A stretch of 64,000 nt of DNA, from the NCBI RefSeq assembly GCF_019697375.1, contig NZ_JAHCDI010000004.1, forward strand, positions 1,785,324 through 1,849,323, read 5' to 3'. The position numbers were made by a program, and so were the translations under genes. Origin of the DNA: Micromonospora tarapacensis (GTDB lineage Bacteria > Actinomycetota > Actinomycetes > Mycobacteriales > Micromonosporaceae). A model generated the notes under the pieces. It was not told the DNA's origin, did not search any database, and saw nothing but the letters and a program-made list of their open reading frames with translations. Shown piece after piece: positions 7,021 through 36,810 of this stretch (the stretch's first letter is position 1; each line of letters opens with the position of its first letter).

Positions 7021-8022
7021 TCAACCGGCCTGAGGCCCCACCAGCCCCACCAACGCCCGGTTCGTGCGATTCGCCCGCGCCGCCTCCCGCTGCTGACCCG
7101 CGGTCACCTCGATGTACGTCTGCGACGACGCCAACGACGCGTGCCCCAACAACCGCATGATCTCCGACGCGCCCGCCCCGTCCTCCGCCAACCGCGTCGC
7201 GAACGTGTGCCGCAACGCGTGCAACCGCGCCCCACGCGGTACCCGGTCACCGATGCCGGCTCGCCGGAAACAGGACTCCACCAGATACTGCAACCCACCC
7301 CGACGCAGCGGCTCACCCCGCCGATCCACAAGCAGCGACGAATCCGGCCGCACCGCACGCGAACCGAACCGGCGCGCCCGACTGTCCAGATAGCCCACCA
7401 GCACCGCATCCAGGCCCGGCTCCACCGGCACCATCCGAGGACGCCCACCCTTGCCGGACACCTCCAGACGACGCTCGCCGGGCCGCCCGCCGAGCGAACC
7501 GACCCGCAGCGCCAGCAACTCCGACAACCGCAACCCCGCACACAGCGCCACCGCCAGCACCGCCACGTCCCGCTCCGGCCACGGGTCACGCTGCCGACCC
7601 TCGGCCCGCGCGGCCGAGGCGAGCAGGTGCTCCGGAGTGTCCTCGCCGCGCAGCGGCTTGGGTTGGGGGAGCGGAGCCCGAGGACGCCCCACCGCCGGCA
7701 TCGGATTTCCCGGCACCACCTGCTCGGCTACCAGGAAGGAGAAGAAGCCGTTCCAGGTCGACCAGGCCCGCCCGACCGAGGTGGCGGCCCGGGCGGCGGC
7801 GAACCGGGCGAACGCGGCCCGGATGAGCCTGGGGGAGAGGGCCGCGACACCTAGGTGATCAAGGGGGAGGGGAGGGCTGGCGAGCTCTGCCGCGAGCGCG
7901 GCGACGCTCGCCAGGTCCCGCCGGTACGCATCCTGGGTGTGGGGGGAGGGCTTGCGGGTGGCCCGGGTGGTCAGGAACTCCTCGATCAGCGTGACAACCA
8001 ACTTATCCGTTTTGTCATGCAT
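7021..8022 (-). CDS. Xer-like tyrosine recombinase
   Basis: A 333-residue tyrosine recombinase with an N-terminal SAM-like core-binding domain (SPHTQDAYRRDLASV, residues 26-40) and a C-terminal catalytic domain. All active-site residues are present: R165 (GLRLSELL), K191 (SGKGGRPR), H268 and R271 (LHALRHTFAT), H294 (LLGHASL) and the nucleophile Y303. Length and motif spacing resemble XerC/XerD more than phage integrases. Its ATG (8022-8020) lies inside a perfect 28-bp dif-like palindrome, so the recombinase probably binds its own translation start. No partner recombinase, excisionase or relaxase lies next to it. Whether it resolves chromosomes, belongs to a mobile element or is domesticated is open. 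Confidence 0.9.
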   Translation of the reverse strand: MHDKTDKLVVTLIEEFLTTRATRKPSPHTQDAYRRDLASVAALAAELASPPLPLDHLGVAALSPRLIRAAFARFAAARAATSVGRAWSTWNGFFSFLVAEQVVPGNPMPAVGRPRAPLPQPKPLRGEDTPEHLLASAARAEGRQRDPWPERDVAVLAVALCAGLRLSELLALRVGSLGGRPGERRLEVSGKGGRPRMVPVEPGLDAVLVGYLDSRARRFGSRAVRPDSSLLVDRRGEPLRRGGLQYLVESCFRRAGIGDRVPRGARLHALRHTFATRLAEDGAGASEIMRLLGHASLASSQTYIEVTAGQQREAARANRTNRALVGLVGPQAG

Positions 8023-8041
8023 AATGAGTATTATGCATGAC
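8014..8041. other. dif-like recombination site A (perfect palindrome)
   Basis: Left arm GTCATGCATAA, 6-bp centre TGAGTA and right arm TTATGCATGAC make exactly the 11-6-11 layout of Xer sites. The arms are perfect inverted repeats of each other. By eye, 17 of 28 positions match the E. coli dif sequence, including the core CATAATG and TATTATG. The site is AT-rich in a region of about 70% GC and covers the start codon of the recombinase gene. It could serve as recombination site, operator, or both. Confidence 0.65.
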
Positions 8042-8372
8042 TTTCGTGTTCCCGGCTATCGGGAGCCCCGGTCGATGTTGAAAGGGGGAGCCGCAAGCGG
8101 CAGGAACAACGCTTTCTGGGGTTCAGGCGCGGCGGAGCCGCCGGGCACCAACGTCGGGCGTCGGCGAAGTCATCACCACCACCTCCGGGCAGCGGTGCGC
8201 ACGCTGCTACGGCAGGGCGACCCCGCCGTAGCAGCGAGAACCTCTCTCGACGTACGGCGCACTCCGGACCGCCAACTTTACATAATGTAGATTATCGAAT
8301 CGGGACTCGTCGGGGATTACCGCACGCCTCACTCGACCGGCTGGGCCGGAGCGTTGAGCACCGGCGGATGGC
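8042..8372. other. Intergenic stretch between recombinase and small gene
   Basis: About 330 bp with no convincing gene. It holds dif-like site B at 8275-8302. A plus-strand frame starting inside the palindrome at 8034 has unlike composition and no ribosome binding site. Otherwise I see nothing here. Confidence 0.5.
8275..8302 (-). other. dif-like recombination site B
   Basis: Read on the minus strand, the arms are CGATTCGATAA and TTATGTAAAGT around the centre TCTACA, again 11-6-11. The stretch CGATAATCTACATTATGT closely resembles the actinobacterial chromosomal dif as I remember it (CGATAAT, two or three variable bases, ACATTATGTCAAGT). That comparison is from memory and needs checking. It is asymmetric, as true XerC/XerD sites are. 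It lies 233 bp from site A and outside any clear gene. Confidence 0.55.
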
Positions 8373-35812: not shown

Positions 35813-36810
35813 TCAGCCCCGGCGGCGGGCCCGGGCGGCCCAGATCGTGTATGCCGGGTCGCGGTCGAGGTTGTGCCGATCCCGGTCGTACCGGCGGGTG
35901 GTGCGCGGGTCGGCGTGACCCATCGCGTCCTGCACGTCCTCCAGCGGCACCCCCTCGGCGCGGGCCGTGGTGGCGAAGGCGTGCCGCAGCGAGTGCGGTG
36001 ACAGTCGTGCCCACGCGGGTATCCCGGCGCTGCGGGCAAGCCGCCGGACCAGCCGGAACACCGAGTGCCGGTCGAGACGGGCACCGCTGGCGGTGACCAG
36101 CAACGGCCCGGTGAGCTGATGGGCTGCCACGCCCTGATTGGCGGCCCGCTGGGCCAGGTAGGCGTCCACCGCGTGCGCCGTGCCGGGGTCAGCGCCCGGC
36201 GGCGCGGCCGGCCGCCCTTGCCGACGAAGCGCACGCTGCGATGCCCCTGCTCCACCGCGAGGTCGGTGACGTCCAGCGAGACCAGTTCGCCGACCCGCAG
36301 CCCGAGGTCGGCCAGCAGGCTGACGGTGGCGCGATTGCGGGCGGCGGTCGGTCCCGTCTCGGCATCGGCGGCGGCGAGCAGCGCGTCCACCTCGTCGGGG
36401 GCCAGGCCGACGGTGGCCGAGTGGTCGCGATCGATCCGGGGCCGGTCGGCGTCGCCGACCGGATTCGCGTCGACCGCCCGCAGTTTGACCAGGAAGTCGT
36501 ACCAGCTGGACAGGGCGGACAGCTTCCGGGCCACGGTCGCCGGGGTCATCGGGCGGCCGGTGCGGGCGACCAGGGTTGCTTCCAGCGTCCGCCCGTACTC
36601 GTTGACGTGCAGGAAGTTCGCCCGCAGCGGATCGAGCCGGCGGGCACTGCACCAGGTCAGCCAGTTGGCGACGTCGCGGCGGTACGCGTCGCGGGTGTGC
36701 GCACTCAACCGCCGGTTACGCAACCACGCGTCGGTGACGGCCATCGGCCCGTCGGGCAGGGCCGGGTGGGCCGGCGGGCGATACAGCACCGGAGTGTCGA
36801 GCGGACGCAT
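35813..36810 (-). CDS. Tyrosine recombinase/integrase, one-base frame break
   Basis: A recombinase of about 332 residues. The core-binding domain reads LSAHTRDAYRRDVANWLTWC. The catalytic residues are R172 (DLGLRVGELVS), K198 (VGKGGRPRRR), the HSLRH box, GHADPRTTRRYDR with the second histidine, and the nucleophile tyrosine. The frame breaks after RRRALTP. Adding one C to the run seen as GGGG at 36185-36188 restores GTAHAVDAYLAQRAANQG. A short inverted repeat GAGAA-ATG-TTCTC (36813-36825) precedes the start. Neighbours are a broken methyltransferase on one side and an HNH protein and low-GC DNA on the other, so it may mark an old integration. Confidence 0.8.

Follow-up and report, generated by a model that had tools for sequence, protein, structure and literature searches.

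Why should a chromosome that already has a canonical dif keep, a few hundred bases away, the gene of a further Xer recombinase whose start codon lies inside a palindromic site of its own? The question arises in a stretch of 64,000 nucleotides (hereafter the window) from Micromonospora tarapacensis, positions 1785324-1849323 of contig C4 (NZ_JAHCDI010000004.1) in a four-contig genome of 6.9 Mb. Here, the gene of a Xer-like tyrosine recombinase (window 7021-8022, minus strand) begins within a symmetric site, A (8014-8041), and a dif-like site, B (8275-8302, minus strand), lies upstream. We lean, without great confidence, towards the explanation that gene and site A form a plasmid-type Xer module at the chromosome terminus, one that adds a third Xer and relies on a single recombinase, and that A would be both a private crossover site and a promoter/operator. 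A first-pass annotation of the window had also proposed a recombinase-site module at this locus, with site B either as the true chromosomal dif or as part of a mobile element using a dif mimic.

A third Xer gene, its palindrome and the chromosomal dif

The open reading frame encodes 333 amino acids (its coordinates include the stop codon) and has orthologues in related genomes. It matches both PF00589 (catalytic) and PF02899 (N-terminal) above the Pfam cut-offs and has all six catalytic residues (R165, K191, H268, R271, H294 and Y303), which together identify a Xer-like tyrosine recombinase. The first annotation was right that a complete enzyme starts within site A: the ATG (8020-8022, minus strand) lies in the right arm, and a like placement is found in most relatives. 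Because XerC- and XerD-like genes are present elsewhere in the genome (C4:3617657-3618682 and C4:2708206, respectively), the recombinase counts as a third Xer. Orthology to XerC or XerD can be rejected, as the protein reaches 156 and 130 bits on the XerC and XerD models and is outscored by the XerD-like gene (266 and 307 bits) and by the main piece of the XerC-like gene at C4:3618170 (219 and 193 bits); the curated cut-off of these models is not decisive here, because no gene of this genome passes it. XerS identity is rejected as well (56.7 bits on model NF003462 against a cut-off of 267). The nearest paralogue in the same genome is 31 percent identical, and the ERLR...HPRA tail common to the host XerC and XerD is absent from the third recombinase. 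Its best sequence match among solved structures is XerD of E. coli, 1a0p (69 bits).

Site A, GTCATGCATAA-TGAGTA-TTATGCATGAC, is a perfect 11-6-11 palindrome, with complementary bases in 11 of 11 arm pairs, just as first annotated. The site matches only itself in the window at up to three mismatches, and its core ATAATNNNCATTAT recurs at up to one mismatch only in site B (expected 0 in both cases). The window has four perfect 11-6-11 palindromes, where 12 first-order simulations give 0.25 on average; those other than A are GC-rich. At 10 other recombinase loci of the genome (9 genes), no upstream site like A is present. Given the window matches, the simulations and these other loci, we set aside a chance origin of the palindrome. 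Within A stands a probable -10 element, CATAAT, overlapped by TAATAC (8028-8035, minus strand), 7 nt ahead of the recombinase ATG, a position that is plausible under the -10 spacing rule for leaderless transcripts. We infer that the recombinase message may have a leaderless start at site A.

Two further details surround the site. Just upstream of A, at -28 to -19 from the ATG, a stretch close to GAACnCGAAA is conserved in Micromonospora loci; it may belong to the promoter or act as an accessory site. The spacer between A and dif (8042-8274), the length of which is highly variable among relatives, contains what reads as a hairpin-forming inverted repeat (GCTGCTACGGC/GCCGTAGCAGC, 8203-8235, with arms at 8203-8213 and 8225-8235), perhaps a terminator.

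Site B, on the minus strand CGATTCGATAA-TCTACA-TTATGTAAAGT, is the canonical actinobacterial dif: it matches the consensus, is unique and lies opposite the origin. It agrees with the dif of Frankia alni, CACGCCGATAATGCACATTATGTCAAGT, as quoted in a passage of PMC3025954. The pattern GATAATNNACATTATGT, searched at up to two mismatches, has a single match in the genome, exact and at site B (a backward-pattern control also gave one match), and the site stands at 0.48 of the genome from dnaA. The first-pass suggestion that this is the true chromosomal dif is therefore well founded, owing to the exact core match and the antipodal position. Its 11-6-11 register is as first annotated, with one qualification: complementary bases occupy no more than 6 of the 11 arm pairs, so that B is asymmetric-armed like an ordinary dif rather than a second symmetric site. 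Across our family sample of 121 Micromonosporaceae genomes, CGATAATNNACATTATGTNAA at up to one mismatch occurs once each in 85 (backward control: none). DnaA was located in 30 of 30 chosen genomes, and the dif-dnaA distance, computed with genome sizes rounded to 0.1 Mb and with the gene position in place of dif for G046 and G004, was 0.47-0.50 of the genome in 28 of the 29 that have both on one contig (0.384 in G032). GC skew also flips sign near 8 kb of the window, where it is locally confounded by gene strand.

Conservation in the family and relatives beyond it

A whole-genome protein search (E <= 1e-35), on which our main counts rest, found the recombinase gene in 60 of the 121 family genomes and 20 of 44 genera, always as a single copy and with at least 291 bits. 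In the phylum sample, 8 of 396 genomes pass the same threshold, two of them in the own genus. A second set of 80 named loci was kept from 281 found with six peptide patterns; 79 are readable, one (L068) being left out as it begins within the gene. This set is biased towards an intact A, because one of the patterns, MHDKTDKL, is partly encoded by the right arm. Named loci and G genomes overlap, some being one and the same genome, so that totals of 125 and 114 count sequences and not genomes. All 125 family sequences read (the window, 79 named loci and 45 G loci) retain the six catalytic residues (R, K, H, R, H, Y), as do 12 of 13 relatives from outside the family, the thirteenth (L140) being a fragment.

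At each of the 79 readable named loci, a single dif-like site lies upstream of the gene, at 292-1432 bp and in the gene's orientation (65 with no mismatch, 10 with one, 3 with three and 1 with four). A dif at up to one mismatch shares the contig with the gene in 53 of the 60 gene-bearing family genomes, 255-5381 bp away (median 445); its orientation is that of the gene in 50 and the opposite in 3. Four of the remaining seven have a site with 2-3 mismatches, 681-3421 bp away and in the opposite orientation; in the other three (G004, G083 and G066, the last cut by a contig end), no dif was seen in the DNA examined around the gene. Opposite orientation is confined to one deep group of the gene tree: its ten members (support 92/93) comprise all seven such cases and the three genomes without a visible dif. 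Neighbouring genes vary among loci while the dif linkage stays. As in single-recombinase Xer/dif modules, the recombinase is encoded next to a dif-like site in the region of the terminus. Among 15 dif stretches from gene-less genomes, 5 retain a neighbour of the endonuclease/exonuclease/phosphatase family. Four genomes of one genus (L166-L169) have dif and this neighbour and no recombinase, a state that suggests either loss of the recombinase or a stage before its gain.

The palindrome is conserved along with the gene. TGCATAA-N6-TTATGCA occurs once each in 47 family genomes and stands at the gene in 45 of the 60 gene-bearing ones; of the other two, G116 has a contig end 43 codons into the gene and G004 has the palindrome elsewhere. 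Among the 15 gene-bearing genomes that remain (with G004), G092 is one base off and G035, G040 and G062 retain 6-bp inner arms. In G040 and G062 the A-like palindrome precedes the assigned start and does not share its reading frame, which means that the start codon cannot by itself account for the palindrome. CATAA-N6-TTATG stands at the start in 74 of the 79 named loci, with a variant in 5. In a genus sample of 160 genomes (A searched at up to one mismatch, gene absence judged at E <= 1e-30), 154 have site A; the six without it are four without the gene, one whose gene is cut by a contig end (G620) and one with a shortened A (G641). The first-pass annotation had staked its proposal beforehand on conservation of the 28-mers beside homologues, and an absence of conservation failed to appear.

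Changes in the arms carry a further signal. In a profile of 75 rows, taken from the 80 loci and the window and chosen by the inner palindrome, the inner columns are conserved by construction; among 69 distinct family sites, the inner arm pairs are nearly invariant. In the outer arms, the pair L3-R26 is complementary in 45 of the 69, against 33.1 expected, a value reached by none of 2000 permutations (relatedness ignored). Matching changes in both arms recur at separate places of the tree: GGTGCATAA/TTATGCACC in L155 and L133, CCTGCATAA/TTATGCAGG in L113, L083 and L090, GCTGCATAA/TTATGCAGC in L080 and L082, and CGTGCATAA/TTATGCACG in L107 and L086. Arm mismatches such as GCTGCATAA/TTATGCATG are also found in many sites of the tree. 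Presence in 60 of 121 genomes with arms that change together bears out the idea of a conserved module of recombinase and A, whose symmetry fits a single recombinase.

Two other ideas from the first-pass annotation fared less well. A present-day mobile element or dif mimic is not supported, given a gene that is single-copy and near dif, an exact inner A that is never present more than once per genome in the 121, and the finding of one dif only within up to 4 kb each side at all 79 readable loci, which also sets the locus apart from IMEX elements. In the genus sample, an extra A match was found in 2 of 160 genomes (a one-mismatch site on another contig in G558, and in G610 a match outside the 4 kb around its gene). 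Inversion of the segment 8042-8274 was set aside too, since neither the arms nor the centre of A match those of B and dif orientation is constant over most of the tree (50 of 53 genomes).

Outside the family, the nearest relatives are, to judge from protein sequence, plasmid-borne. Relatives at E <= 1e-20 occur in 58 plasmid records (Mycobacterium 32, Rhodococcus 18, Mycolicibacterium 6, Prescottella 1 and Dietzia 1), with 37-41 percent identity among the 40 listed of these 58. Ten of the records were inspected for sites, those of clinical mycobacteria being left out, and four have a clear 11-6-11 site 46-102 bp before the start: DN22 p1 (11/11 pairs, at -81), R. opacus (10/11, at -102), and M. 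crocinum and M. gallinarum (both 10/11, at -46). The M. crocinum protein is identical to that of L134, on a 199256-bp contig of G158; L140, the fragment mentioned above (query residues 15-227), is of the plasmid type and lies on the 5.97-Mb contig of the same genome, with a 9/11 upstream palindrome that 3 percent of shuffles reach. L135 (G298) has a 9/11 palindrome over its start, reached by 5.5 percent of shuffles; in four further homologues from the phylum (L136-L139) such a palindrome is missing. Phage records gave no recombinase match at E <= 1e-20, and plasmids searched by blastn with the 48 bases around A returned a single match, at E = 10.

What site A may do

The proposed mechanism starts from the two alike arms of A, to which the recombinase would bind. 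On a dimeric chromosome, the two copies of A would come together at division and cross over in the 6-bp centre, and A would act as a second, private dimer-resolution site next to dif. Since A also holds a probable -10 element and the start codon, the bound recombinase would repress itself, and by blocking its own expression it would limit its level; such self-repression, already raised by the first annotation, is plausible from the layout. A position within the gene start would moreover tie the gene to the terminus, because a dimer-resolution site works only there: location matters for a crossover site, which acts in cis, and not for a diffusible protein with its operator. With its 6-bp centre, ATAA/TTAT ends and alike arms, A would suit one Xer with a site of its own, by analogy with XerS/difSL and XerH/difH. 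We infer binding to A, crossover at A and self-repression, and likewise a plasmid origin of the module. More tentative still, and in our view not quite an even prospect, is that the locus holds, within a few hundred bases, two dimer-resolution systems that are independent of each other, namely XerCD/dif and a plasmid-type single recombinase whose private symmetric site doubles as leaderless promoter and start codon, coupling supply to occupancy.

It is conceivable, if rather unlikely, that A is only a promoter/operator, repressed by the recombinase or another regulator, and that the real substrate lies elsewhere. The plausible -10 element so close to the ATG, the overlap of A with the start in most loci and the occurrence of exact A once per genome agree with this, as does G641, where A is one base shorter, a change that should be worse for a 6-bp crossover centre than for a promoter; that locus would separate the two functions. 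An operator alone leaves the gene's closeness to dif unexplained, however, and both the 11-6-11 layout with ATAA/TTAT inner ends, typical of Xer crossover sites, and the plasmid relatives, in which the palindrome precedes the start by 46 to 102 bp, speak for more than promoter function. The tight linkage and the ATAATNNNCATTAT core common to A and B could instead point to action on the canonical dif, alone or with XerC or XerD, with A as the operator. We consider this improbable: dif is also present without the gene (85 of 121 genomes at up to one mismatch, against 60 with the gene), the arms of B are asymmetric, every one of the 34 gene-bearing genomes tested also has XerC/XerD-like genes, and a trans-acting protein would draw no benefit from linkage. 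Very little credence, finally, goes to the reading that an element inserted next to dif in the past and that its relic has persisted by inertia. Plasmid-borne outside relatives and a patchy presence (20 of 44 genera) are in keeping with it, and the terminus favours DNA mobility, according to a part of PMC2731167; on the other hand, the catalytic residues are kept in 125 of 125 sequences, a second dif is missing up to 4 kb each side of 79 loci, and linkage persists despite differing neighbours and flipped orientation.

Several observations also weigh against a third Xer module with A as its private crossover site. At E <= 1e-35, 61 of the 121 family genomes are without the gene (G116 among them through a contig end inside it), and the match in G076 contains one in-frame TGA. 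Ten of the 60 gene-bearing genomes are without an A-like palindrome and G007 has a weak form only, while the G641 locus (L250) combines an intact-looking gene with an A shortened by one base in its centre. Clear covariation in the outer arms is limited to L3-R26: the pair L4-R25 gives a weak signal (complementary in 32 of 69 distinct sites; 169 of 2000 permutations, relatedness ignored), L1-R28 and L2-R27 show no signal in the 69 sites, and L5-R24 passes on 4 sequences, 3 of them non-complementary. On the plasmid side, five of the ten inspected relatives (M. vanbaalenii and four Rhodococcus plasmids) have no upstream site, and the 8/11 pairs of M. chubuense are reached by 43.5 percent of shuffles.

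Known systems and further observations

In its working, the module of recombinase and A would be closest to XerS/difSL of streptococci and lactococci, where, as a section of PMC5357621 describes, a single Xer gene adjoins its own terminus site as one module and XerS is without the FtsK-contact residues of XerD. Here, too, one Xer gene adjoins its own site at the terminus and the protein is without the ERLR...HPRA tail. The sites differ, difSL having 31 bp, an 11-bp centre and imperfect arms according to the same section, and site A 28 bp, a 6-bp centre and symmetric arms; and while XerS is described there as an alternative to XerCD, XerC/XerD-like genes and dif coexist with the module here. 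XerH/difH of epsilon-proteobacteria, a single Xer linked to its site in most species (PMC2731167, in part), is a group-defining sole system without a XerCD pair, whereas the present module is an addition to XerCD/dif. XerL of Legionellales resolves dimers as a single recombinase, and in Coxiella xerL stands on a plasmid beside a dif-like site; its hosts have no other Xer, as far as the relevant portion of PMC9765430 goes, in contrast to the three Xer proteins and two sites found here, a comparison made by description. In each of the 34 gene-bearing genomes examined for this (of 60), the XerD model gives two or three matches at E <= 1e-48, and because of this XerC/XerD-like pair and the separate dif the module is a variant of single-recombinase Xer/dif and not the sole dimer-resolution system. 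Recombinase-plus-site units of large actinobacterial plasmids resemble it in having related recombinases, some with an upstream 11-6-11 site; their sites lie 46-102 bp upstream, whereas the unit here is chromosomal and tied to dif, with a site overlapping the start codon. In Tn3-type res/TnpR, the crossover site likewise overlaps the recombinase promoter, one region serving crossover and self-repression, but TnpR is a serine recombinase, with chemistry and site architecture unlike those of the module here.

Reviews, in the portions concerned, describe one dimer-resolution system per chromosome, either XerCD or a single Xer. In the open-licence literature, no paper was found that brings together dif, XerC, XerD and Micromonospora, nor, among the papers listed and by title or abstract start, one on a dif-linked third Xer in actinomycetes. 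If our explanation is true, a plasmid-type resolution module has been kept at the chromosome terminus in many filamentous actinomycetes, and the locus is a natural case of crossover site, promoter and start codon in one sequence. One could then test whether the two Xer systems serve as backups for one another, compete, or work at separate times (for instance vegetative growth versus sporulation), and the module could yield a terminus-specific recombination tool for these hosts.

Viral contigs contain four stretches with the site A pattern (L185-L188). In L186 and L187, recombinase, A and dif stand at the edge of predicted IMG/VR proviruses and look like host terminus DNA included in the prediction; L185 looks the same by sequence alone, and L188 is a match within a coding frame of an unrelated contig. 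An exact actinobacterial-type dif core occurs in 62 viral-contig stretches, three of which are L185-L187, and such contigs are possible users of dif. Elsewhere in the window, at 35888-36720 (minus strand), a second Xer-like match is split into two adjacent pieces (C4:1821211-1821501 and 1821507-1822043) and is thus possibly a broken gene.
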